Positions 2,351 to 64,000 of a stretch of DNA of 64,000 nucleotides are shown in pieces. The stretch spans positions 17,180,607-17,244,606 of the forward strand of contig CM026568.1 in NCBI GenBank assembly GCA_015143295.1. The letters are read 5' to 3'. The notes under the pieces are model-generated. The model saw only the letters and a list, made by a program, of their open reading frames with translations, was not told where the DNA came from and ran no database searches. The translations under genes were made by a program, and so were the position numbers. Source of the DNA: Tetracentron sinense (Eukaryota > Streptophyta > Magnoliopsida > Trochodendrales > Trochodendraceae). The first letter of the stretch is position 1; each line of letters opens with the position of its first letter.

Positions 2351-5300
2351 CGATGCGGCAGCTACAAGCATCGAGAGTTTGCCAACTAGAAAACGAAAAC
2401 GGGAAATAGAATACGACTTGGTAAAGAAATCTGCAATCTGCAAAGAAGAAGGAACAAAAGGCAAAGTAATGGTGCCATGCTTGAGATGATGACGAGTAAG
2501 GTGACAATCGATCTCAATGTGCTTGGTTCGTTCATGAAAAACCAAGTTGTGAGCAATCTGAATAGAACTCTAGTTGTCACAATACATAGGAGTGGGATGA
2601 GAAAGAGAAACCCCCATGTCTGCAAGTAACCAACGTAACCAAAGAATCTCGTTGGTAGTAGATGCCATAGCACGATATTCTGCTTCGGTTGAAGATTGAG
2701 AAACAATAGATTGTTTCTTGCTCTTCCAAGAAATAAGAGAATCACCCAAAAAGATACAGAAACCAGTAACAGACTTGCGATCTGTAGGATCACTGCCATG
2801 ATCAGCATCAGTGTATGCACGCAACTCCAAGGAAGAGGTGGATGGAAGTAAAAGACTCTGAAAGACTGTACCCCGAAGATATCGCAAAATACGAAGAACA
2901 GCTGCCCAATGAACTATAGTAGGAGAAGCAACAAACTGACTAACAACATGAACAGCATATGCAATACCTGGACGAGTTATAGTGAGATATACCAAGCTCC
3001 CAACAATAGTACGGTATAAAGTAGGATCTGACAAAGATATACCATCAGACGAAGAATACTTTGCGTTAACCTCAATGGGAGTATCAAGAGTCTTATTATC
3101 AGTAAGTCTAGCCCGCTCAAGAATATCTGCAACATATTTCGACTGAGAAAGAAGATAACCTCTGGGTGAGTATGCTACCTCAATACCCAAGAAATATCGT
3201 AGGGAACCCAAATCCTTCATTTCAAACTGTCTAGCTATCTCTGTCTTCAAAACTGAAATGCCATCAATATCATCACCAGTAATAATCATGTCATCAACAT
3301 ATAAAGAAAGAATGATACGACCTGCATCAGTACACTTAACAAAGAGAGCAGAATCATGACTACTAGGAGCAAATCCAAGGGAAGAGATCACAACAAAAAA
3401 TTTCTCAAACCAAGCACGAGGTGCTTGTTTAAGACCATATAACGCTTTCTTGAGCTTGCAAACATACCCAGAATCATGAGAAACACCAGCAGGGGGCACC
3501 ATATAAACTTCTTTTTGAAGATCTCCATTCAAGAAGGCATTTTTAACATCAAGTTGAGAGATATGCCACTGACGAACCGAAGCTACTGCAATAAGAATAC
3601 GAATAGTAGTCATTTTCGCAACAGGAGCAAATGTCTCCTCATAATCCATACCATACTGTTGAGAGTACCCTTTTGCAACTAATCTAGCTTTGTATCGCTC
3701 AATAGATCCATCAGAATTAGTCTTGATCTTATACACCCAACGACAACCAACAACACTCTTACCAGGAGGTAGAGGAACCAAATCCCAAGTACCTGTCTTA
3801 TGCAAAGCAGAAAGTTCCTCATCCATAGCTTGCTGCCAAAGAGGATCAAGAATTGCCTCTTTATAGGAAGAGGGCTCAGAGAGACAATAAATAGAAGCTA
3901 AAAAGGAAGTAAAAGATGAAGAATAACAAGAATAAGCAAAATCTGGTAACTTTGTGGACTTACGAATGCGTATGGATTGACGTAGAGGTGGATCCACAAT
4001 CTCAGACGGAGCTTGATGGACCATAGGAGAAGAGGGAGCTTCAGGTGTGCCGGAGAGCAAAGTGTCAGTACCTGCAGAATGATCAGTACGAATCCGTCGA
4101 GTATAATGTAAAGGTAACAGGGGAAGAACATGAGAAGGGGTATTTGAAGTACTAGGAACCTGAGATGACAAACTATCAGAATCCTCAGAAAAAGGATCTA
4201 TACGAACAAGATCAGATCTAGTCAAAGCATGAGTGGTGGATGGAATAGAAAAGAAAGGTATATGTTCGAGAAAAACAACATGACGAGACACATAAAGTTT
4301 TTGAGTAATTGGATCAAAACAACGATACCCCTTTTTACCTTCACCATAACCAAGAAAGACACAAATAACAGATCGAGAGGACAACTTGCTGCGTTCTACA
4401 TGAGGACGAAGAACGAAACAAGTACAACCAAAAACTCTAAAGAAAGAATAATCAAGAGCATACCCATACAACTTTTCGAAAGGAGACAGACCTGAAATAT
4501 GAGAAGATGGAATTGTATTAATCAAACTTACAGCAGTAAGAACAGCTTCACCCCAAAACACACTAGGAACTGAGGCAGATAACAAGAGAGAACGAGCTGT
4601 TTCAATAATATGCCTATGTTTTCTTTCAGCAACACCATTTTGTTCAGGAGTATCTGTACACGAAGTTTGGTGAATAGTTCCATCTAAGGCAAGCAGCTCA
4701 CAAAATTTATGAGAAGTGTATTCCCCACCCAAATCACACCTAAAACATTTTATAACAGCAGAATGTTGAGTTTTGACAAGAGCTCGAAAGGCTGTATATA
4801 TCTCAAAGAATTCAGAACGATGTTTCATTAAATAAACCCAACAATAACGAGTATGATCATCAATAAAAGAAACATAATATCGAGACCCTCCTTTTGTGGC
4901 AACAGGAGAAGGTCCCCATACATCAGAATGAATCAAATCAAATGGAGAAGAAGAAACAGAAATACTTCGATTAAAAGGTAAAGCTGAAAATTTTGCCAGT
5001 TTACATCCACTACAATCAGAAATATCATGAGTTTGCAAATTTCCTAAAACCCCTGTAGATGCCAAAAATCTCAAACGAGAGGACGAAACATGACCAAGAC
5101 GAGAATGTCATAAATAAAAACTAGAAGAAGAAGAACTCAAGTGAAAAGAAGACAAATCAACACTAGTAGCAGCAGCAACTGGCACTTTTAACTCATCCAA
5201 AATATATAGTCCCCCCTTCCTACGGCCTGTCCCAATCAGCTTCTGGGACTGCAGATCCTGCACATAACAAGAAGAAGATGAAAAGGTGACTAAATTACCA

Positions 5301-6716
5301 GAATCACATAATTGACCAACAGAAGCAAGATTTAATGTGAGTTTCGGATTATGATAAACATTAGGGAGAGACAAGTGAGGCGTGACAACAGAGCCAACAC
5401 CTGCTAAAGGCATAGGAGTGCCATCAGCAGTCATGACAGGAATAGAAGACGAAGGAGATACAGAAGCAAAAGACAAAGAATCTGGAGACATATGATGTGA
5501 AGCTCCAGAATCCAAGACCCATATAGAAGATGACATACCTGAAGAACTGTGAGGCAACTGACCTACGTAAGAAGAAGTAGACATAGCTTGTGGCTGTGAG
5601 GAGAGAAACTTCTGAAATTGCTCAGCCAGAATACTAGGATCGGTGAAAGGACCTGATGAAACTACTGCTGCAGTATTAGACTGTGGTGGTTTGTAACCCT
5701 GAAGTGGTCTATAAGCATTAGATTGTGACTGGTTGCCAGGCTTCCAAGCTTGAGATTGCTGCTGTGATTGATTCTGTTGTCTCAACTTAGGACATTGAGC
5801 CTTCCAATGGCCTTTCTACTTACAGAAACTGCACTCGTCAAAGGCAACTCTTGTATAAGGCTTATTCTGATTATTAGAGGGTGGCTTAGAAGGTACTACT
5901 AACACAGAAGGATTAGAAGTAGAAAGAATTCCCTTTTCAGAATGAGACTTAAGACGTATTTCTTCTGCCAATAACTCACTAACAACTGAGTCAACAGAAG
6001 GAAGTGGAGAACGATGCAAAATTGAACCTCTAAGTCCTTCAAAATCACTGCGAAGTGCCGTTAAAAACTGTACCAACCGTTGCTGCTCTCTACGATCAAT
6101 ATAGGCACCACATGCCTTTAATTTTGTCGATTCTGTAAGAGCCAATTGATCCCAAAGATCTGTCATAGCAGAATAAAACTCTTGAATACTCATATTCTTC
6201 TGCTGAAGAGCTCGTATGTCATTCTCTAATTGATATTGCTTTGCAAAATTTGATTGAGTGAATAACCTCTGTAGATGATCCAAAACCTCCTTTGCTGTCT
6301 CATACTTCGCCAACTGTGTACCTATGGAATGTTCAACAGAATTGTTAATCCAAGTAATAATTTTCGCATTGTTTGCTTCCCAGGCATCTATCAAAGTTTC
6401 ATAACCCTCATCAGTATTCTTGGGTTTCACAGAAGTTCCACTAACATATCCCCACATCTTTTTACCCTTAAGAAAATTTTTCATTACATAACTCCAATAC
6501 GAATAATTCTTTCCATCCAATCTCACACTCACAGACTGAAGCGAATCGTCTCTTTCACCCGCCATAATAAAGAAACAAAGAAAACCAGAACGCAAAAGAA
6601 AGAAAAACGAAATACCAGATTGCGATGCGAGATACCAGATTGCAGAAACTGTACGAACACCCTCTCGAAATTGTACTGTCACCCTCTCGAAATTAAACTT
6701 CCTCCCATGAAATTTA

Positions 6717-7431: not shown

Positions 7432-7659
7432 ATGGTGAAGTTCTCTAAGCAGTTTGAGGGTCAGATTGTTCCTGAGTGGAAAGAGGCCTTTGTTGATTAC
7501 TGGCAACTCAAAAAAGACCTCAAGAAAATACATCTTCTTAAAAATAACAACACACCCACTAACCATCAACAAAGCTCCTTGCCCAACAAACTCTTCTCCT
7601 CTATAAGGAAGTTCTCTTTATTTGGTCATCAACACAGAGAACATGGGATCATTCAAGTA

Positions 7660-7712
<53 letters not shown>

Positions 7713-10700
7713 TATATATATTATAGTTTTTGCTAATGTAATACTTATAGAATTTAATTTTGTGTTTATGTTGTTGATTAGGTTCGTAAGATACTTGCCT
7801 CTTCAGATAGTAAGGGAGACTTGTATGAGACTGAATTGCTAGAACAATTTGCTGATACAGATGCCGACAAAGAATTTTTTGCGCGATTAGACCTTCAACT
7901 TAACAAAGTGAATCAGTTTTACAAGACAAAGGAGGGAGAGTTTATGGAGAGAGGTGAGTCATTGAAGAAACAGATGGAGATTCTCATTGAGCTCAAGACT
8001 GCACTCAAACAACAGCGCGGTAAAGGCACCTCTGCCCAGGACTCAAAGGAGGATGCCTCCATCTCATGCACAATCTCATGTGGTATATAACATACCTTCT
8101 CTATAAAAATTCTGCTGGCTAAAATGAGAAATGAAATGCTAATAAGCATATTAACATGTGATTTATAGTTATATAAAGAGGTTTCTCACCTGTTTTCCAT
8201 TCTTTTCTTTCATTGTTAATCAAATTTTCTCATACCAAGCATGTAAGAAACACATTTTCTTATCATTCCTAAATTAATTCTATATGTATATTTATGTGTT
8301 AGCATGTTTTGATATGAAAGTTGCATTATAGTTTTGGTCCCACTCCTGCTTTCTTGAACACCATGCACATATATCAGGAAGGACTAGTTTTCCTTAACCA
8401 AGCTAGGAAAAGAAAATGAGAAATAGAAAATGGGGTGGTTTTTCTAATAAGGGTCATGAGTTTTTTCCCTTACTTTTTTGGCTAGATATTGATGAGGCTT
8501 TACTAAATTACTTATCTCCCTGTTTTTCTGTTCCTTGGCTATAGAGGAAGAGTCTATTAATGACATAACAGACCAAGAACAGGTGCAAGAAAACTCCATT
8601 GGCGAGTTTGACAGAAATGATGTGCAATTCTCAGACTCCCCAAAATCAGATGAGGTGGGGAAGTCGGTGAAGATGAAAAGAGAGGATTGGAAGATGAGGA
8701 CCCTTTCGGGTCGTGTTTTCAATTGCCAGGGAAAGAACATGAGGCTAAACATCCCTCTAACAACACCATCTCGTACCTTCTCGGCGATTACTTACTTAGT
8801 TTGGGAGGATTTGGTTAACCAATCGAATAAAAGCAGTTCGGAAGGAAATAAACTACATGTCAACAAAACGAAGCTACACCATGCAGAGAAGATGATTCGA
8901 GGAGCTTTCACTGAGCTCTACAAAGGACTGGATTACCTCAAAACTTACAGGTATCATTTCTTAAATTACAGTTTCTTGAACTTTAATTTCATACAAAATT
9001 TAGAAGAACATTAAAGAGAGAAAATGGCTATTTAAGATATTCTCTTAGTTTAAGGGGCCATCAATTTGGACAACGGATGACGCACGGGTTCAACAAGGGA
9101 CAATTTTAGATTTCGATAAAGAGATAGCACACTTTGGATTATCTTAAATTTTTGTGATATGATCTTGCAGGAACTTGAACATGCTTGCTTTCGCAAAAAT
9201 CTTGAAGAAATTTGACAAAGTAGGTGATGGGTAACTTGTTATTCTCTTAGAAACTTTTGTTTGGTTTTTCATTTTGTGAAGAAACTGAGATCTCTCTCTT
9301 CTTTCAGGTCACTGAGAAAGAAGTCCTGCCCATTTATCTCAAAGTGGTTGAGAGCTCCTATTTCAACAGCTCAGACAAGGTAAATTTTCATAACCAAAGA
9401 CTACTTGGTAAAATATCTGGAGCCTAACATACACATCTATGTTATACAACATCCATGCAAGGATATTATGATCTCCAATCCATGACAGGAGGGTGTTAGG
9501 ATGTGGGGCACAAATTGTCCCATCATCTAATTTTTAACGGTATTAGATTTACACGGATCTAACTTAGATATGTCTGTCTTGTACGCATTGGCATACAATT
9601 TTTATCCAAATTATAATAACCATTTGAACCTCCTAATTAGTCTCAGTAATGGCAGGTAGTCAAGTTAGCAGATGAGGTTGAGGAGCTTTTTGTTAAACAC
9701 TTAGCCGCAGATGACCGGAGAAAAGCAATGAAATACCTGAAACCGCATCACCGTAAAGAATCCCATACTGTAACCTTCTTCATTGGTAATTATCTTCATC
9801 CATATGCATCTGATTATCAAAATAAGAATGCCTAGAAAAACATGACCTGTACCTGGTCCACATTTGGGTGAATTATGTCCAAACCCTATGGTACATGGGT
9901 TGAAGCTTTGAAGACCATCAGTCAAATCCCATTGCACCTAAAGGAAGCACTAATTAGCCTCCCATGTACCAGGTTACCTAGGTATAATCCCATGGTCTCA
10001 AAAGAGTGAACAATGGTTCCTAATTAAAATCATTTATTTCTAATCAGGGCTATTCACCGGATGTTTCATCGCGCTCTCTGCCGGATACATCATAATGTCA
10101 CATATCGCTAGGATGTACACTCGGCAGTCGGATACTGTGTACATGGAAACTGTCTATCCTGTGCTTAGGTAAGTACCTTTTCAATATATTTTGTTACTAC
10201 CTCGTTAACACATAGCTCTTGTACATGTGTTCCTTATAATGTTTAAGGCTACTGATGAGGCACTTCTGCAATTTTTGTTTGCAGCATGTTCACCTTATTA
10301 TTTCTGCACTTCTTTCTGTATGGATGCAACATTTTCATGTGGAGAAAAGCTCGAATAAACTATAGCTTCATCTTTGAATTGTCCCCCACCAAAGAGCTTA
10401 AATACAGAGACGTGTTCTTGATCTGTACCATGTCTATGACTGCGGTGATGGGTATCTTGTTTGCTCACTTGTCACTTGTTGTGAAAGGGAATTCGTCTAC
10501 TCATCTTCAAGCAATTCCAGGCCTTTTGTTATTGGTAACTTTTCCATCTGTTTCACCTTAACATTGTTCAATATGTTTCCTTATCTGTAGCCATAACGGT
10601 CCTGCATGACTGTGGTTCCAGTTCAACCTCTTGATGATCATAATCTAAACTCACTAACTCAACAAATCATTTTAGATAAATTATATGTTATGTACATATG

Positions 10701-35000: not shown

Positions 35001-38000
35001 GTAAAAATTTTCAAATTTTTGTTTTTAAAAATAGAAACGGAAGTGCAACCAAACGGGGCCTTAATTTTTTGTTTAAATTATATAATTATATAAAACTTAG
35101 TGAGTGCCCGCTTAGTCGATAGGGATCCTATTCCTGGCTAGGCAAGGTGGTAGCCTAGGCAACATTTTGACCACATTAATGGAAAGGTGGAGAAGATAGG
35201 AGAAGATTCCACATAGTTAAGTGGGACCGGGTTTACAGACCAAAGAGTATGATTGTTCAGACTTCAGAACGTTGTGATGCATGATATCCATGAATAAGGC
35301 TCTTCTTCCAAGGAAATGGCTTTAGTGCTTCAGCACCAAAAACAGAGCATTGTGGAGAAGGGTAGTGGGGGTGAAGTTTGGGACGTCTAGATTTGACTTG
35401 GACTTGAATCGGGTATCTTCCTCATACAGGTTTATTGTGTGGAAATGGATTATGAAGGTTCATGAGCAGTTCTAGGAACAAACCAGATTTGTAGTTGGCA
35501 GTGGCAATAGGATTCAGGCTCAAGATGACTGGAGTGGGACCGGCCAGCTATGTTAGGTGTGTCTAATACTATACGGGCTAATCCTCAAGAAAAATGTCTT
35601 GGTTTGTCATACATTCGAGAAAATGAATTACTAGGTAGTGCGGTGCCCAATATTTCATTAAATCTTAGGGACAAAGAGATGGAAGAATTCTTGAGGTTGC
35701 TCAAGAAGCTCAACAAGTTCACATTTCTTTAGATAGAGAGGATCGTGGGTTCTAGACGGGTAATCTGAAGCCTGAAGGGGACTTTCATGGCGTGAGATTG
35801 CTACAATTTCCTCCTTCAGAAAAAAAGGATGCAGATTTGGTTGAAGGATGCTGAAATTTAGGGAGATCTAGAAGTTACAAATTCCCCCGAGGTTCAAGCA
35901 TTTGCTTGGGTGACTCGGGAATTCTGGATAAGATTTTGAGAGTTGATCATCTTAGGAGCAGGGGGTTCCAGTTTTCCAACAAATGTTGTATGTGTCAGAA
36001 GGCTAAGGAAGACATGCATACTCTTCTCCATTATCCCTTTGGCTGGGTATATATAGAGTTTCATCATATCCTTATTCTGGGTATCCACTGTGATTCATAA
36101 GGAAGTCTGTGACGTGTTCATCAACTGGCCAAAATGAGTTTCTAGTCGTAAAGGCAATATTACTTGGAGTATGCTACCCTACTTAATCGCTTGGGGCATA
36201 TGGAAAGAGAGAAACACAATGATATTTGACGAGAATTGCCAAGTTATGTAAATCTATTGGACGGGATCTCTGAAATTGGGCTGCGTCCTTGCGGGAACTT
36301 TAAAGGGAAATGTTTTTAACTTACGATTTTTTTTCTTGTTGGAGTCATAGTTTTTGATGATTTCTGAGTCCTGACCCTTTTTTAAATATTTATTGGGGTA
36401 ATAACCTCATTTCCCATCTGTAAATTCTTCTTATCGTAATACAATTTCTTGTTATTCTTCAAACAAACAATATTGACAACTATTGAGCATTACAGCAACA
36501 CTTGTATTCATTATAACCTTTTTAAAAGGAAAACTAGTAAGTAGTGCATGCGATGCACGGGTAATGATCAAAAGGCATGAATAAAACCTGCTAAAAAACA
36601 TGATAAATAAGGATCTTAAATAATGGAAAGTATAAATTAAATAACAGCCATACTTTTTTCAACATTTAAAATATTAATTATATAAAGTATTGTCTAAACT
36701 AAACTTAAAACAAATGTACAATCCTTGAGTAATTGGCTTGGTTAAGGATTATGTTATTTTTGAGCTTATAGCCCTTCCTACATCACAGTAGCTGTAATAT
36801 TTGAGAACAATGAGTTGTGCAATCGTAATCAGTCCAGTATGAGCCCATAGCCGGGCTCACCCTCAAAGTTTCCAGATGATGAGAAACAAAAGAAGTTTAC
36901 TATTATTTTTCTTAAATCTACCACTCCTATATCATATTATTATTACTTATCTATAAATAAATGCATGTCATGGGCCAATTTCGGCTCAGTTGGAGACATA
37001 TAGATTGTCCGATTAGGGGATATATCAGCCACAGGAGTATCGTATAGCAAGAAAAGTAAGATAAGGATGTAACGAAGTGCTTTGATTTATACCAAGTATT
37101 ATGCGATATAGCTTACATCGTAAACAAAATACCCTTAAATGTAGGATTATTCATAGACAGTTGTTATTTCCTGCAATAGTGCCGATTTTGTGGTATGTGA
37201 ATCATGCTATAGTGTCCTCAAAAGGGGAAAAAAAAAGCTTGAAAGAAAGAAAGAAAAAGCATTTACCAAAAACAAACTGGCAATAAAGCATGGGGAGACC
37301 CAAGGTGGAAGATGGGAATTGGTATTATAACCTAGAATATTACCCATTTTCACCATCAAAACTGCCCCACCTTTATTCTCACCAATTCTCTCCAATCATT
37401 TTGGCCTCTGCTCCTGGTAGCTCTCGCTCCAAATCCCTGTTTAAAAATTAAAACCCTCACAATCCTCGCAGAGTCATCCCTCTCGGACTCCTCCAAGTCC
37501 CACTTGCGTCCAGATCCTCCCCCTTCGTTGTTCTTCACTATCCTTTCTTCTCACATCCTCATCTCCACTGGCTATGTAACTATGTCCTAGAGCCGCATGA
37601 GGGTCGTATGCCTCATTTGCCATAGCTATGTGTTACCGCAGACGACGGAGAAGCTGAAGATAGCATTGAGAAAAGAAGTTGAAGGTAAGAGAGAGAGAGG
37701 AGGAAAAACAGGGGGTTTGTCCTCTAATATAAAGAGTGATATACAATAAAATTAAATTTTTTCAAGTATCATCACCATGCTCTCAAACTGCCTTGTCTTC
37801 CCAAGTATACCCATCATTGAATTATACGTCCTTGAATCATGTGAAAACCCCGCATTTGCCCCGCCCAATAGAAGAATTGTAATGCCGGCCGCATCATGGT
37901 TTAAATAATCGCCGAAACCGTTACGTAACGCCCGTTACGTAAAGGTTTCGGTGGCCTCCGATACCCAATACCGTACTTTTACCCGTTTATCCCGAAACAA

Positions 38001-44839: not shown

Positions 44840-44845
<6 letters not shown>

Positions 44846-45230
44846 TAGCAAAGATGCACGGGATGTCCTTTGAGAGAGATAAAAGAAGAATATGAGATAC
44901 ATGAGAGAAAAAATATGAAGAAATAATTTGAAGGTTTTTTTGGGATCAAACAAAAAATGAGGAGACTTAATAGGTAGAGATAGAGAAAAAAATATGGGGG
45001 AGGAACACGTCTCTACACACCCTTATCCATGTGAGAAAATAGAGGATCATAATCCCCTAAAATCCCTCAAATGGTTTTTGGGAGACATGTGTGAAAGAAA
45101 TAATTATTGGTTGAGATTAAAGAAGGGTGTCACGTGGCATCCTTAAAACAAAATTCATATAATTCATGGGATTGAATATTGGAGAGCAAAGAGAGGGGGT
45201 TAGGTGTCACTTATTTTTTTATATATATAC
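44840..45230 (-). mobile_element. Divergent Helitron-like unit at array start
   Basis: On the minus strand this piece begins near AATAAGTGACACCTAACC, contains the CTCTCTTTGCTCTCC word of the array units, and ends CCCGTGCATCTTTGCTAA followed by T. It is the most diverged unit and lies directly next to the array. Confidence 0.5.
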
Positions 45231-48200
45231 TAATAGACACCTCATGCGATGCACGGGTATTAATTTAAGAATATCTAAAATTAAATAATAATATTAATTT
45301 AAATATTAAGTAATATATCTTAAGACTATTTAATAAATTTTATTTTGGGTATTAATTTAAGAATATCTAAAATTATATAATATTATTTATTTATTTAAAT
45401 ATTAAGTTATATATTTTAAGAATATTTAATAAATTTTATTTTTATTTGAAAGTCATTATTATTTGTATTAATTAACTGATTTTATAATAATAATTCATTA
45501 TTATTTTAATATTATTGAACAGATAATCAAAAGTCTCTTAGTATTAAACTTAAATTAATAAACTTAAGAGTTTGAGATAAGAGAGAACTCTACAATAGTG
45601 GAGATAGAGAGAGATCTAGGATGAGATAATGGGTCCCAAACCTGAACGGTGGGGATTAAAGAGAAAAATCACATGTCATCTCTAAAATAGAACTTATAAG
45701 ATTAAAGGGATGGGAGTTTGGAGAGCAAAGAGAGAATGTCTTATTTCTTTATAGTACTAGCAGAGACCTCGTGCGATGCACGGGTAATAATTTAAGAATA
45801 TCTAAAATTAAATAATATTTTTATTTATTTAAATATTAAGTAATAATTTTAATAATATATTTTTTTATTTATATAAACATTATAATTTATATTAATTGAC
45901 TGACTTTATAATAATAATTTTATTTTAATAACATTTAATAAGAGATCATAAATTTCTTAGTATTAAACTTAAATTAATACACCCAAAAGTTGGAGATAAG
46001 AGAAACTCTATAATAGTGGAGATAGAGAGGTTTCCAAGATGAGATAGTGGATCCCAAACCTACAAGAGTTGGAGATAAGAGAGGACTCTACAATAGTGAA
46101 GATATAGAGGGCTCTAGGATGAGATAGTGGGTTCCAAACTTGAAGGGTGGAGATTAAAGAGAAAATATAAGTCATATCTCTCAAATAGAAGTTATAAGAT
46201 TGGAGGGATTAGGGTTTGGAAAGGAAAGAGAGGTCTTATTATTATTTTCAGAGAAGTCTTATTTCTTTATATTATAGTACAGATAAGTAGTAGATATATA
46301 TATATACTAGTAGAGACCCGATGCGATGCACGGGTAATGATTTAAGAATACCTAAAATTAAATAATATTATTTATTTATTTAAATATTAAGTAATATATT
46401 TTAAGAATATTTAATAAATTTTATTTTTAATAATATAATTTTATTTTTATTTGATAGACATTATTAATTCTATTAATTAACTGATTTTATAATAATAATT
46501 CATTATTATTTGATAGAAAATCATAAGTCTTTTAATATTAAATTTAAATTAATATACCCAAGAGTTGGAGAAAAGAGAGGACTCTACAATAGTGGAGATA
46601 GAGAGCGCTTTAGGATGAGATAGTGGGACCCAAACCTACTTACAAGAGTTGGAGATAAGAGAGGACTCTACAATAGTGGAGATAGAGAGGGCTCTAGGAT
46701 GAGATAGTGGGACTCAAACCTACTTGCAAGAGTTGGAGATAAGCGAGGACTCTACAATAGTGGAGATAGAGATGACTCTAGGATGAGATATAGGTCCCAA
46801 ACCTAAACAGTGGGGATTAAAGAGAAAAGTCACGTGTCATCTATAAAATCTTATAGGATTCAAGGGATGAGAGTTTGGAGGGCAAAGAGAGAGTTATATC
46901 TTTATAGTATATTAGTAGAGACCCCGTGCGATGCACATGTAATAATTTAAGAATTCCTAATATTAAATAATATTATTTATTTATTTAAATATTAAGTAAT
47001 ATATTTTACGAATATTTAATAAAATTTATTTTTAATAATATAATTTTATTTTTATTTGATTGACATTATTATTTGTATTAATTAACTGATTTTATAATAA
47101 TAATTCATTATTATTTGATAGAAAATCATAAGTCTTTTAGCATTAAACTTAAATTATACACCCAAGAGTTGGAGATAAGAGAGGACTCTACTATGGTAGA
47201 GATGGAGAGGGCTCTAAGATGAGATAGCAGGACCCAAACCTACTTGTAAGAGTTGGAGATAAGAGAGGATTCTACAATAGTGGAGATAGAGAGGACTCTA
47301 GGATGAGATATGGGTCCCAAACCTGAACGGTGGGGATTAAAGAGAAAAGTCACGTGTCATCTATAAAATAAAACTTAATAGGATTGAAGGGATGAGAGTC
47401 AGGAGAGCAAAGAGAGAAAGTCTTTTTTCTTTGTAGTATAAGTAGTAGACTAGTAGAGACCCCGTGCGATGCACGGGTAATAATTTTAAAATATCTAAAA
47501 TTAAATTATATTATTTATTTAATATTAAGTAATATATTTTTAAAATATTTAATAAATTTTATTTTTAATAAAATAATTTTATTTTTATGTGATCGACATT
47601 ATTATTTGTATTAATTAACTGATTTTATAAGAATAATTTATTAATATATTAATAATATTTAATAGAAAATCATGTCTCTTAGTATTAAACTTAAATTAAT
47701 GCACCCAAGAGTTAGAGATAAGAGAGGACTCTACAATAGTGGAGATAGTAGATCCCAAACCTACTTGAAAGAGTTGGAAATAAGAAAAGACTCTACAATA
47801 GTGGAGATCGAGAGGGCTCTAATGAGATAGTGAGACCCAAACCTACTTGTAAGAGTTAGAGATAAGAGAGGACTCTACAATAGTGGAGATAGAGAGGACT
47901 CTAGGATAAGATATGGGTCTCAAACCTGAATGGTGGGGATCAAAGAGAAAAGTCACGTGTCATCTATAAAATAAAACTCAATAAGATTGAAGGGATGAGA
48001 GTTTGGAGAGCAAAGAGAGAAAGTCTTATTTCTTTATAGTATAAGTAGTAGACTAGTAAAGACCCCGTGCGATGCACGGGTAATAATTTTAAAATATCTA
48101 AAATTAAATAATATTATTTATTTAAATACTAAGTAATGTATTTTAAAAATATTTAATAAATTTTATTTTTAATAAAATAATTCTATTTTTGTGTAATAGA

Positions 48201-48575
48201 CATTATTATTTGTATTAATTAACTGATTTGATAATAATAATTTATTATTATATTAATAATATTTAATAGAAAATCATAAGTCTCTTAGTATTAAACTTAA
48301 ATTAATACACCCTAGAGTAGAGATAAGAGAGGACTCTACAATAGTGAAGATAGCGGATCCAAACCTACTTGAAAGAGTTGGAAATAAGAGAGGACTCTAC
48401 AATAGTGGAGATAGAGAGGACTCTAGGATGAGATAGTGGGTCCCAAACTTAAATGGTAGGGATTAAAGAAAAAGAACCATGTGTCATCTCTAAAATATAA
48501 TTTATAGGATTAAAGGGATGAGAGTTTGTAGAGTAAAGAGAGAAAGTCTTATTTCTTTTATAGTATAAGTAGTAT
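45231..48575 (-). mobile_element. Head-to-tail array of six Helitron-like units
   Basis: Six units of about 520-605 bp follow each other in one orientation with no spacer. Left ends lie near 45231, 45757, 46307, 46912, 47450 and 48053. On the minus strand each unit starts near TCTACTACTTATACTATAAAG (best at the units ending 47449 and 48052), and ends with the hairpin CCCGTGC-ATC-GCACGGG and GTCTCTACTAG. The 17-bp palindrome is perfect at 47461-47477 and 48064-48080. TC start, 3' hairpin and CTAG end are Helitron marks. The internal part has a subrepeat around GAGTTGGAGATAAGAGAGG, present one to three times, which explains length steps. No coding capacity. Confidence 0.78.
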
Positions 48576-50376
48576 ATACATATCATTCTACTAATAAAGT
48601 ACAAGGAGTGAGCAAAATTTCACTTGAACGTAATTACCCTTTAACTTAATTTATTTAATATAAAACTTATAATATAACCAACTTTTAATTAAGTCACTAT
48701 TTAATACTATGTGGGACCCATTATAAAAATAGAGTTGGTTTAGGACTACCATGTTAGGGAAGAATACTAAAGGAGAGTTGGTTTAGGACTTTACCATATT
48801 CTAGGGAAGAATTCTATTTCTATAGAAAGAATCGGAAAGGAGAGTTGGTTTAGGACTCTTACCATATTTTAGGGAAGGCAACCATGAATAGTATCTTCCT
48901 ATAATCTTCACACCCTGATTGATCGACCCTTATAAGGACCGTAGAAATTCCGAATTGGCACTTGGGGAGCAACCAAGAAAATAAATTCTCATTATTGCAC
49001 CTATATGTATATGCAATTTTTCTGTTTTGATGTTAAGTAAGATTATCAACTTTTACTAAACTATGGATAGTTGAAAAGTGAAGGGAGGTCAAGTAAGAGT
49101 ATGATGAGTTATTTTTGTTTTGTTATGGAGATTCTTGGAACTTGCAAATGTGTATTTTTAGACCATTCTCTTGAAGTTACATATTGATCAATTGCCGATG
49201 CAGAAGGAGGTCAGGTTTTTGCGAAAACTGACTATTAATATTTGATTCAAACACAAGGTGAAGTGGTGGATTACATAGGCGTCCTACATCGTGATGACTC
49301 TGTTCTCATGTTTGTGTCCTGAGATCAGTAACTTATTCTATCGGATTGTGCCTGTTTCTGAGTGTTGTTCAATATCCTCAAACCTAATTAATCATATATC
49401 TCTCATTCCTCTGTAACAATGGTTGTAACAATGGTAATGAAAAGAGAAAAAACTATGATAAAAAATTTCGAAGAAATCTCTATTTTGCCATTTTCATCGA
49501 AAATAACTCTTTATTAGTAGAGAGTTATACTAATCTAAGGTGGGACCTATGAGACTCACTATTATGTATCAAATTTCAATTTTGCTATTTTTATGGATAA
49601 GACTTTTTATTTATATTTTTAAATATTTTGAAGTCAAAAGCACAAATATTCTAACTATGGAAAATAATTATAATGTCAAAATATTTAATTCTAATATTAT
49701 TGTTTTTTAATTAGTAAAAGATTATTACTCATGATTCCTTGCTTTTCATACATTTATAAGTGGGACCAGTAAATTATCTTTTCTAATATCAAATTTAAAT
49801 TAATATAAGAAATATTAAATTTAATTACTCAATTATATTTATATAAATATAATATTATATTAAAAAATTATTTAATATAAAGAGAGTAATTTGTCGTCTA
49901 ATGAAAATATATTAAAAATTATATTTTAATAATAAAAATACGTACACTTTTACTAATATATATATATATATATATACACGTGTGTTTTTTAGATAGGCAA
50001 GCTTGACAGTTAGTGAGTTAGCAGGTAAGGAGGGTTTTCAACCCACACAACCCCAACAGTGACCAGTTGGTAGCCCATTGGCCTAAGATTGAACAAGTAA
50101 TTGGAAGATAATCCTCTATTAATTATAAACAGGTAAGACACTGATGTCTCACCACCGGTTGTATGATAATTATAATGGGACTCGGCACTTCTTTAGGACA
50201 AAGCAATCAGTTAGATACCCTTTGCAAATTAATAACTATGCTGCCAGGGCTAATCAAATTGCCGGCATTCATGTACAACCACAAATGCAAGACTTCTGCA
50301 AATCCCTGAAATAGAGAGATCATTAGAACATAAGAAATTGACTCAAATTAACTAAGAGAGCGATTATAGTTACCAA
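48576..50376. other. AT-rich spacer
   Basis: Mostly AT-rich DNA, including a GTTGGTTTAGGACT repeat near 48.73-48.86 kb and a (TA)n tract near 49.96 kb. Sequence at 50.00-50.10 kb (GACCAGTTGGTAGCCC..) may be a SINE scrap. No gene supported. Confidence 0.4.
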
Positions 50377-59687: not shown

Positions 59688-62600
59688 CTATTGAAAGAAT
59701 TGCCTCAAGTTCATAATGTTACAGGATTTATGGATGAGATTACCTTGCAGATCTTTCAAGTAGCAAACGCCAAGACTCCCCAATCGTTGTACGATATACG
59801 GTCCTTCCCAATTAGGTCCCAATTTGCCACTGTTAACCTCCCTGGTATTCTGAAATACTTTTCGGAGAACGAGATCGCCGACCTGAAGGACTCTTCGCTG
59901 TACCTTTCGGTTGTACGCCTTTCTTAGCTGTTGCTGGTATCTCTTCGTCTGAATGCTGGCATCTTCTCGCTTTTCTTCTAACAAGTCGAGGTAAACGGCC
60001 ATGAGCTCAGCGTTCCTGTCTTTCTCTCCACTCTTCTTCTTGTTATGCCAAGAGCGTATTGTGGGCAAACTAATCTCAGTAAGAATGACAGCTTCCATGT
60101 CATAGGCCAAAGAGAAAGGTGTTTCGTTTGTAGGACTCCTCGGTGTCGTCCTATATCCCCATAATACGTTGTGCAACTCGGTAGTCCACTTCCCCTTCGA
60201 GTCTTCCAATCTTCTTTTCAAGGCGTTCAATATATTTTTATTAGCTGCTTCAGCCAAGCCATTCCCCTGAGGATAATATGGAGACGAAAAAATATGTTTG
60301 ATCTTTAATTCGCTACAAAACTCTGCAATGATACGACCTGTAAATTGTTTCCCGTTGTCAGTGATAATGGATTGAGGTATGCCAAACCTACAGACGATAT
60401 GCTCCCACATGAACTTCTTTACTTCTTGTTCTCTGATACGAGCAAGGGGAACGGCTTCAATCCAACGAGAGAAGTAATCGGTCGCCATAAGGAGAAAAAT
60501 GAGATTTCCTGGTGCCTTAGGGAAAGGTCCCACAATATCTAGGCCCCACCGTGCAAATAGCCAAGGTTGAGAGACAGTGTTAAGTTCTTGAGCTGGAGCA
60601 TGAATTAAACGAGCATATCGTTGACACTGACTACACTTCTTAACATACTTCTGAGCATCAGCTTGCATATAAGGCCAGAAGTATCCTTGGCCCAGGGCTC
60701 GATATGCTATCGTTCTCCCACCTGAATGTATGCCACAAATCCCTTTATGAAGCTCAGCAAGAATCCTCTCCACATCTACAGGATGAACACACTTCAACAA
60801 AGGTCCTCCGAAAGACTTTTTATACAACTCTCCCTGCACCAGGACATAACGAGGTGCCTTGAACTGAATTCGTCTTGATTCTTTTGCAGTGATAGGAAGA
60901 ACTCCATCTCTCAAGTAGGCCGTCAACCATGTCATCCAACTTGGTACTGGATTAACAAAACATACCTCCCGCTGAGCCTGGAGTGCTATCGAAGGATACT
61001 CTTTGTATTCCATGAGAACGGCTTTGGGTTCATCAGACTGCATCATGGAAGCAAGATAAGCCAGAGCATCAGCATGCCTATTCTCATCTCTTCGGGTATG
61101 CTTGATCTCCACAACGGTGAATGCTTCACACTGCGAACGAATGAGTGCAGTATACTGTTTCATTCGATCATCCTTGCATTCATAGTCTCCATTCACCTGA
61201 TTCACTACAAGCTGTGAATCACAAAAAACTCTCAATCTAGAGACCTGCAGCTCGTGCGCACTCTGCAAGCCAAGCAGCAATGCTTCGTACTCAGCTTCGT
61301 TGTTAGAGGCAGTAAACCCAAGACGTGACATCTTCTGTATTTTCACGTTCTCCGGACTAATGAGCACAACACCAAGTCCTGAACCACTTGCATTAGAAGA
61401 TCCATCGACGTACAACAGCCAATCAACCCATCCGGAAGATTTATCTCCATCTACAGCGATATCATCGTTGTCAACCTCATCGGGGAGCTCACGAAGATCA
61501 GCAATCACCTCCTCCTCCTCCACAGGGAAGTCTGATCGGAATTCTGCCATTGCCTGCCATTTCTCTGAACTTCTCGCTCTATACTGAATATCGAACTCAC
61601 TCAGAGCCACAGCCCACTTCGATATTCTTCCCGCCAACTCGGGTCGTCCCAACACGACTTTCAAAGGATAGGTTGTGATGACAACGATAGTATGAGCATG
61701 AAAGTAAGGACGAAGCTTTTCAGCATAAAAGACAAGAGCAAGACACACCTTCTCGACGCCGCCACAACACCTGACCAAAACTGAGCCAATGGCTTGCGCT
61801 GAGACAGAAAGATACAGGTACAAGACTTCACCTGGTTCAGGGACAGAGAGAATAGGGGTCGAGCCTAAATACTCCTTCAAAGCAATGAAAGCTTGAGAAC
61901 ACTCTAGCGTCCATGCGAAAATAGAATCCTTCCGTAGGAGCTCAAAAAGGGGTTTACAACAATCAGATGACTTTGAGATAAAACGATTTAGTGCAGCGAT
62001 ACGCCCTGTTAACTTCTGGATCTCCTTCTTCGACTTGGGTTCCGGCATGTCCAGCAGAGCTCGAATCTGAGCTGGATTAGCTTCAATACCCCGCTGACTC
62101 ACAAGATACCCCAAGAATTTGCCAGAGGTAACCCCGAAAGTACACTTCTCTGGGTTAATCTTCAAATTAAAAGTTCTCAGAATAGAGAAAGGCTCAACAA
62201 GATCCGTCACAAGGGTCTTCCGAAATCGGCTCTTCACAACGATATCATCAATGTAAACTTCAACCGATTTGCCGAGGAGTGGCCCAAACATGAGATTCAT
62301 AAGACGCTGATATGTGGCACCGGCATTCTTCAGACCAAAGGCCATAACACGATAGCAGAACAAGCCACGCTCTGTAATGAAAGTGGTCTTCTCTTGATCT
62401 TCTTCCGCCAAGAGGATTTGATTATAGCCCGAATAACCATCCATAAATGATAACATTTCATGGCCAGCAGTGGCGTTGATGAGCCTGTCAATTCTTGGCA
62501 TAGGGAAAAAATCCTTGGGACATGCTTTATTGACACCAGTGAAATCAATACAAACTCTTACCTTCCCATTCTTCTTAGGTACAGCTACTACATTAGCTAT

Positions 62601-64000
62601 CCAGGCAGGATACTGCACTTCCTGGATGAACCCAACTGGATCAGTTTGTCTATCTCTTCATTCACTGCATCATGATAAGCAGGGGCAAGTCTCCGAGGTT
62701 TCTGCTTCATCGGAGGGACAGCAGGATCAACATTGAGGTGGTGGCAGATAATGCTCGGACTGATGCCTGTCATATCTTTGTGCGACCATGCAAAGACATC
62801 AAGGTTCCTCTTCAAGAATTCTAGCAGCTCGCCCTCTTCGTCCGTTGTCAAGCTCGTCCCGATCTGCAACACCTTTGGCTCTTCTTTCGTTCCCAAATTG
62901 ACTGCTTTTCTTGGGCTCAACGGAAGGTCTGCACAATGTGGCCTCCGAGCTCTCTTCCACAACGGAGTCGACCTGTAATTGCTATTTGGGCACAACGGAA
63001 AGAGGGAAGTCACACTTCTGCGACGCCAATTGATCCCCTCTGATCTCCTGGGGTCCATCCTGTGTTGTGTATTTCAACACCTGATAGTACGATGAGGGAA
63101 CAGCCTTCATCTCGCGGGTCCACCATCGACCCAAAATCGCGTTGTAAGACGATGGAGCATCCAGAACGGAAAATCTGGTTTGTAGGACAACGGGTCCTGC
63201 CACAACGGGTAAGACGTCTCCTAACGGTTTCATCGAACTGTCATCAAACTCAAACAGCGGGGTCTGAGCAAAGATGAGAACGGACGGATCCAACTTCATC
63301 TGAGTGAAAGCATGAAGATACAAAATGTCTGCCCCACTCCCGGAATCCACGAGCACCCTTTTGATGTCGAAATCTTCTATTCTCATGGTAAGAACAAGAG
63401 CGTCATAATGAGGCCGAACTACTGTTGCCAAATCATGATCAGAGAAAGTAAGCACCTACCCCATGCTTCTTGCAGGCATCTTCACCTGACAAACCTCAGC
63501 TTCGTGAGACATCTTCCTCGTCTTTGCTCTGAAATCTTTCTCCACGTCCTCCTCTGGTGCTCGCATTCGGCAGATGACGTTGATGGTGCCTAAAGGGGCT
63601 CCCCCTCGTCCTCCTCCGCTGGTACTTGGATTACTGGCAGGCTCTCCTGTACGAGGTTGAGATAACGGTTCTCTAGTGCGCACCGCATTATCGTTATCAA
63701 AACTGAGATACTCTCCTAAGTATCCTTCCTGGACCAGTCTCTCCAAGTACTCCCTCAAGATGCGACATCGGTTTGTAAGATGACCATGACACTTATGATA
63801 TTGACAATACTCATGTGCCCGTGGTCCCGACGTAACATCTTGTACAGCTCTATCAGGCCATTCGAAGTATGCTTGGCCCTCCATTGATTTCATGATGGTC
63901 GTTGGGCTAACAGTAAAATGGATGGGGTCTGTCCGAGCTGCAAAAGGTCGCCTCTCACTAGGCTGAACACCTCTCTCTCGCTGCACTGGTGGCTGCTCCT
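59688..64000 (-). other. gag-pol region of the Tat element (partial)
   Basis: Part of the gypsy fossil: gag end, protease, reverse transcriptase, two RNase H domains and integrase, in that order on the minus strand. Domain motifs: DSGSGADIL (protease), FMDGYSGYNQI and YIDDIVV (polymerase), VDGSSNASGSG (second RNase H), FWPYMQADAQKYVKKCSQCQ (integrase finger). The gag start and 5' LTR lie outside the window. Confidence 0.9.

Follow-up and report, generated by a model that had tools for sequence, protein, structure and literature searches.

Tandem Helitrons in Tetracentron sinense were probably stacked by insertion at and inside resident 5' tips

Short Helitrons that stand head to tail in the genome of Tetracentron sinense (assembly GCA_015143295.1) carry traces of having entered one another at the 5' end. 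We analysed a stretch of 64,000 nucleotides (nt) of contig CM026568.1 (positions 17,180,607 to 17,244,606, forward strand; hereafter the window), in which a tandem array occupies about 44845-48576 on the minus strand, and searched the 1.16-Gb genome of this one assembly for related copies. As an earlier sequence-only reading had described, the array has six units of 0.52-0.60 kb that can be aligned with one another and a seventh, divergent one; they are numbered here U1 to U7, from 5' to 3' on the minus strand. When U5 inserted, it split the 5' tip of U6, whose clipped part stayed outside. The array as a whole is probably a stack of short non-autonomous Helitrons that grew as newcomers inserted serially, at the 5' tip of a resident copy or within it. 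How such arrays form is debated, with rolling-circle concatemers set against repeated insertion; clipped tips can decide between the two for an individual locus and also give the order of insertion.

A resident tip split around a newcomer

The 5' tip of U6 lies in two pieces. The clipped outer piece, TCTACTACTTA, occupies 46284-46294, upstream of U5 (45757-46283), which runs from a type-2 tip, TCTGTACTATAATATAAAG, to a terminal CTAG. The U6 body (45230-45756) begins directly after that CTAG with TACTATAAAG and ends in TTAG; these features, like all array features below, are read on the minus strand. Across U5 the split tip passes from TCTACTACTTA to TACTATAAAGAAATAAGAC, and the joined halves contain TCTACTACTTATACTATAAAGAAATAAG, the intact tip, which occurs exactly 41 times in the genome. 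Because TCTACTACTTA and TACTATAAAG rejoin into an intact type-1 tip, U5 must have entered U6 at an A^T dinucleotide, between tip positions 11 and 12. No bases were lost or gained, as expected of Helitrons, which insert at A^T without duplicating the target site.

The same signature recurs across the genome. The footprint of a type-2 newcomer in a type-1 tip, TCTACTACTTA followed by TCTNTACTATAATATAAAG, marks nine places including the window. At eight of them (the window, L042, L060, L062, L064, L065, L066 and L067) the other tip half, with zero to three errors, directly follows the newcomer's 3' end; both halves are thus present at seven places outside the window, one of them a copy of another. 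Locus L050 has the same split-tip pattern with one mismatch in the tip. At L042 the stack has two layers, in which TCTA, TCTACTACTTA and TCTATAC... succeed one another and CTAG meets first TACTATAAAG and then TACTATAATATAAAG downstream.

The units belong to a dispersed family of canonical Helitrons

Each of U1 to U6 closes with the hairpin CCCGTGCATCGCACGGG, exact or nearly so, a 7-nt stretch and a terminal CTAG, CTAA or TTAG. With up to three mismatches the hairpin word matches nine times in the window and not once in 100 shuffles; the nine are the six hairpins of U1 to U6, those of U1 and U2 re-read on the opposite strand, and a separate 3' end outside the array at 36545. The perfect 3' hairpin that the sequence-only reading had placed at the unit junctions is present in U1 (48064-48080) and U2 (47461-47477), where the 7-bp stem is intact, whereas the stems of U3 to U6 have one or two mismatches and U7 lacks the second arm.

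In the whole genome the perfect hairpin occurs at 921 places (476 + 445), and its reversed control at none. With U2 as query we obtained 116 matches at many places among the 40 of 1809 first-look candidates that were scored. Many interspersed copies start with TCTACTACTTATACTATAAAG (type 1) or TCTATACTATAATATAAAG (type 2) after a host A and end in CTAG before a T; others are degraded. External 5' ends of the first kind lie at L015, L021, L031 and L048, and with one mismatch at L003, and ends of the second kind at L012, L046, L059 and L061. The 5' TC after a host A is that of canonical (Helitron1-type) Helitrons, although some external ends, including that of U1, are degraded. At the 3' end, where these elements have CTRR before a T and, some 10-12 nt before the terminus, a GC-rich hairpin, the family has CCCGTGCATCGCACGGG, 7 nt and CTAG followed by T. 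Non-autonomous elements of this kind depend for their mobility on the RepHel transposase of an autonomous partner. We found no match to RepHel among the 10 window open reading frames (ORFs) in the Pfam scan (26 ORFs of at least 110 amino acids were listed), a search confined to those window ORFs.

Because the hairpins are dispersed and interspersed copies start with TC after A and end in CTAG before T, the units belong to a Helitron family, which by its sequence is canonical and non-autonomous. A satellite whose period happens to include the hairpin would share the head-to-tail order of the units, but the same dispersal and the same ends, which had been named beforehand as the observation that would separate the two, make it next to impossible. 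So does the outer 5' edge of the array, where the match to other units stops at the tip; past it lies only weak similarity in AT-rich flank, and shuffles equalled it 5 times in 300 with U5 and 14 times in 300 with U3, the lowest two counts. Nor are arrays homogenised within a locus, as a satellite would be: at 14 of 16 loci with several units, no units of one locus are sisters.

Junctions within the array are of several kinds

U1 (48053-48576), the outermost 5' unit, begins with TA-TACTACTTATAC, in which the TC has degenerated, and ends in ...TTTACTAG. It is followed by U2 (47450-48052), which runs from TC to CTAG and has three subrepeats, and U3 (46912-47449), which runs from TC to CTAA. U4 (46307-46911) starts with an incomplete tip, TATACTATAAAG, and ends in CTAG. 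Between U4 and the clipped U6 tip lies a (TA)6 tract (46295-46306) that may be leftover host target. U7 (44845-45229) ends in CTAA before a T; it shares its first ~120 nt with the other units (best E 9e-11), and its kinship is confined to them, the interior being different. The number of internal subrepeats varies among units, as had been noted from the sequence alone.

A CTAG followed directly by TC had been described as the rule at the unit boundaries; it holds at two of the six, U1-U2 and U2-U3, which both read CTAG then TCTACTACTT. The other four differ: U3-U4 is CTAA then TATACTATAAAG; U4-U5 is CTAG, the tract TATATATATATA, the clipped tip TCTACTACTTA and then the TC of TCTGTACTATAATATAAAG; U5-U6 is CTAG then TACTATAAAG; and U6-U7 is TTAG then TATATATATA. 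The exact junction of hairpin, CTAG and TCTACTA (GTGCATCGCACGGG-N5..9-CTAGTCTACTA) occurs three times in the genome, twice in this array.

One dinucleotide in one orientation

Of 32 head-to-tail junctions in the loci that we fetched, 12 fall exactly at the TACTATA site and 4 at the TC boundary. Genome-wide, 26 type-1 tips are interrupted there against 80 length-matched intact ones (26/106), and 80 type-2 tips against 262 (80/342). Roughly one in four exactly matching tips is thus interrupted at the one dinucleotide; these counts are exact-match lower bounds, mostly not inspected singly. The next inward A^T of the type-1 tip, counted with a shorter pattern, gives five.

At the exact site newcomers lie in the resident's orientation. 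For the opposite orientation at the type-1 site we found no newcomer with either tip type, using a pattern narrower than the same-orientation one, and TCTACTACTTA followed by CTAG, which would catch any CTAG-ending newcomer, occurs three times against two for the reversed control, that is, at chance level.

Eight type-2 sites were sampled, of which L069 was dropped and seven were usable. A Helitron-like end precedes CTAG at all seven; an upstream tip was found at four, and in three of these TCTA, by reading, stands directly before the incoming TC.

A recurrent junction could also be inherited. If a composite (dimer) Helitron were mobile, every junction of CTAG with TACTATAAAG could descend from one ancestral dimer; its recurrence at many loci fits this idea, as do L064 and L066, copies of one nested pair that have their upstream flank in common. 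Inner and outer units, however, do not have congruent distances in seven nested pairs (Mantel r -0.41, p 0.95; without L060, r -0.18, p 0.56), a set made up of six of the nine exact footprint places and L050, with its one tip mismatch, and leaving out L064 and L066. The inner unit of L060 differs in its interior, at distances of 0.42-0.44 from the other inner units. At type-2 sites the six distances, all measured against L068, range from 0.24 to 0.58; in three of the six the newcomer's start was not found and was set arbitrarily. We therefore consider descent from one dimer unlikely. The inner parts of L064 and L066 are 3.3% apart; this nested stack may have been copied by segmental duplication or as a composite.

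Two further observations concern the tips themselves. The 3' ends of what seems to be another Helitron family (CACGT...ACGTG...CCCACTAG) directly abut tips of the present one in L043 near 2964 and in L031 near 1386, so that insertion across families may occur; 3' ends of the same type are also present in L003 and L037. On C7 (G000 C7:44893842-44957261), four intact type-1 tip matches lie on one strand within ~63 kb, perhaps through local duplication.

The units of the array have scattered origins

We fetched 20 regions and used hidden Markov models to annotate 5' and 3' parts; 43 loci yielded the 32 head-to-tail junctions mentioned above, and 63 units were complete enough to enter a tree. The loci are the best U2 matches and the first hairpin matches and so are not a random sample; 16 of them have at least two complete units, not all in tandem. 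The exceptions to the lack of same-locus sisters are U1 and U2 in the window array and the units of L055; at L056, two units fall into one clade (support 100), but a unit of L045 stands between them. In the concatenated tree the sister of U3 is L043p2, from another contig (99), and U4 joins this pair next (99); the sister of U5 is L042m1 (97). L043p2 and L042m1 both lie on contig C3. The 3' part of U3 is likewise nearest to L043p2 (0.044), while the 3' parts of U1 and U2 are mutual nearest neighbours (0.051). Overall, the scattered positions are what independent insertions with some local exchange would be expected to give; neither a one-event concatemer nor pure local duplication would predict them.

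The tree bears most directly on rolling-circle concatemers, in which replication past the 3' terminator or round a circle would yield a multimer that is inserted in one event. Two exact CTAG-TC joins speak for it, being the joins found on Helraiser circles (PMC4778049), and tandem arrays have been proposed as a sign of rolling-circle transposition (PMC5876387). Such a multimer should consist of units of one origin and one age joined CTAG to TC. Private substitutions in U1 to U6 are unequal (13, 8, 11, 15, 31 and 19; chi-square p 0.001), and the units do not form a single clade of uniform age; U3 and U5 have their sisters elsewhere in the genome, four of the six junctions are not CTAG-TC, and the exact hairpin-CTAG-TCTACTA junction has only its three genomic occurrences. 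We regard a concatemer as very unlikely.

In L043 the junction types match those of U3-U4-U5-U6, and so does their order. Orthology of the whole block was considered and rejected: the tree is clear only for U3 and L043p2, and for this reason we reject mobilisation as a multimer. Read-through or multimer movement, the other origin offered by the sequence-only reading, finds no support, either in the units, which are not one equal-age clade, or in the seven nested pairs, which are incongruent. Its suggestion of stepwise growth gains support from the 63-unit tree, and that of repeated insertion from the U6 tip split around U5, from the signature at eight of nine footprint places and from the tree, in which units of a single array mostly stand apart.

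U2 may be a crossover product

The 5' part of U2 is closer to U3 (0.055) than to U1 (0.106), and its 3' part is closer to U1 (0.057) than to U3 (0.104). One of its subrepeat spacers is of U3 type and one of U1 type, and both exact CTAG-TC junctions flank it. With the breakpoint fixed at the subrepeats, U2 with U1 and U3 gives the lowest value of 60 triplets (Fisher p 0.002). Simulations on a single tree reached the U2 signal in 14 of 300 cases in any triplet and in 1 of 300 in U1/U2/U3, and the 3' part rejects a clade of U2, U3 and U4 (approximately unbiased (AU) test, 0.024). The simplest reading, supported but not proven by these comparisons, is that U1 and U3 paired with their subrepeats out of register and that an unequal crossover there produced U2. 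Such a crossover would explain both the three subrepeats of U2 and the repeated CTAG-TC junction.

Local exchange of this kind could in principle have built everything: unequal crossing-over would have multiplied one Helitron into the whole array. The recombinant look of U2 fits, and so does the closeness in the tree of U1 to U2 and of U3 to U4. Yet local duplication accounts for U2 and perhaps for U3 and U4, whereas U5, like most units of other arrays, is grouped with units from elsewhere, and a duplication is not expected to split the tip of U6. The split tip excludes it as the sole cause, and we hold an origin of the whole array in this way to be quite unlikely; it stays a contributor.

Adjacent to its hairpin U6 has a tandem duplication of its own, of 96 bp, within the unit at 45255-45442.

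Tip-first nesting and the evidence that weighs against it

The preferred reading, serial insertion at resident 5' tips, can be put as a sequence of steps. Newcomers favour one A^T just before TACTATA, which is TCTACTACTTA^TACTATAAAG in a type-1 tip and TCTA^TACTATAATATAAAG in a type-2 tip. A newcomer would enter in the resident's orientation, its CTAG coming to abut the clipped body and the clipped tip remaining upstream. U5 entered U6 by this route, as the split tip shows; U4 may have entered the TA tract just upstream of the clipped U6 tip, and an ancestor of U1 may have entered at or beside the 5' end of U3. U2 would have been gained later, probably through unequal crossing-over between U1 and U3 that also duplicated the CTAG-TC junction.

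A number of observations weigh against this account. In the window, the full split-tip signature is present at one of six junctions (U5-U6); U3-U4 has no identified clipped tip, and U6-U7 is degraded. Among the seven type-1 junctions at the TACTATA site, a clear clipped tip lies upstream in three (window, L042, L050); of the others, L043 has a partial tip, L044 is ambiguous, and the upstream units of L047 and L051 themselves lack a tip. The expected tip is also absent in L048 and L049. At L063, one of the nine footprint places, no downstream half turns up within ~1.1 kb; L064 and L066 both go back to a single event. The 106 interrupted tips (26 of type 1 and 80 of type 2) were mostly counted by pattern alone, and copied composites may be among them. 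Head-to-head pairs of 5' ends exist, so the orientation rule is limited to the exact site and does not extend to all neighbours. Many nodes of the tree are weak, and the 5' part of U3 is nearer to U2 (0.075) than to L043p2 (0.083). A free-breakpoint scan of the 60 triplets, uncorrected, ranks U6 with U3 and U5 first (0.0075) and U2 with U1 and U3 second (0.0095), and the 5' part does not reject U1+U2 (AU 0.25). Finally, the divergence ordered along the array that stepwise growth might leave is suggestive as a gradient (Spearman 0.6) but not significant (one-sided p 0.12).

Similarity between neighbouring units shows no overall trend along the array (p 0.31). The head-to-head 5' ends lie a few bases apart on opposite strands, in L046 (3978/3983), L051 (4413/4420) and L053 (3526/3545).

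As to mechanism, a transposase able to recognise its own left end, where its normal cut is at A^TC, may be recruited to the left ends of residents, and once there it may cut whichever A^T of that strand is closest. We propose tentatively, with nearly as much confidence as doubt, that the Helitron transposase treats resident left ends as a strand-specific target and places the new copy, oriented like the resident, at the closest A^T ahead of TACTATA. A hot spot exact to the dinucleotide and to one orientation, used in about a quarter of exact tips, suggests that recognition of the left end also steers the choice of target. If so, tip-first nesting would offer tandem Helitron arrays a general way to form, and the order of insertion would be preserved in every stack as a strip of clipped tips upstream.

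Relation to known Helitron arrangements

Tandem and nested Helitrons are already known. One close likeness is a CTAG-TC join between two different Helitrons reported in 2008 (PMC2267711), for which insertion at the A/T formed by the host A and the resident's 5' T was one of two proposed orders. That report concerns one pair joined at the boundary, whereas here the site is recurrent, lies 4 or 11 nt inside the tip, leaves the clipped tip outside and interrupts about a quarter of exact tips. Nested Helitrons have been described in maize (PMC3288121), and for Fusarium FoHelis self-insertion has been described, and with it a possible entry into 5' ends (PMC5148889). These accounts include nested and composite elements with multiple 5' termini, a Helitron that lies within the 5' end of another or 2 bp away from it, and a proposal of self-insertion; the present case differs in that canonical A^T Helitrons are involved and that one dinucleotide and one orientation were counted genome-wide.

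Plant centromeric tandem Helitron arrays (Xiong et al., 2016, as summarised in a review, PMC12628747) share the tandem arrangement. There the copies are described as truncated, many of the arrays have multiple 5' ends and a single 3' end, and rolling-circle amplification was invoked, whereas U1 to U6 each retain a 3' end. Helraiser, or Helibat (PMC4778049), resembles the family in its TC and CTAG ends, a hairpin 11 nt before the 3' end and an A^T target; it differs in encoding a transposase, and the part of that paper covered does not describe targeting of resident tips. A preference for AT dinucleotides is also reported for wheat (PMC13286980). In the literature searched, mostly without subscription papers, we found neither a fixed dinucleotide within the tip used in a fixed orientation, the novelty of which is unproven, nor the letters of the hairpin.

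Other features of the window

The separate 3' end outside the array (36534-36565, minus strand) reads ATTACCCGTGCATCGCAT...TTACTAG and is followed by T. At 2570-6682 and 59688-62618, both on the minus strand, Pfam matches mark ORFs of Copia-type retrotransposons (RVT_2, gag) and one large ORF that combines domains of reverse transcriptase, RNase H and integrase and is presumably Ty3/gypsy-like. Exons with SPX-domain matches in Pfam lie at 7432-9014 on the plus strand; they presumably resemble a PHO1-like gene.

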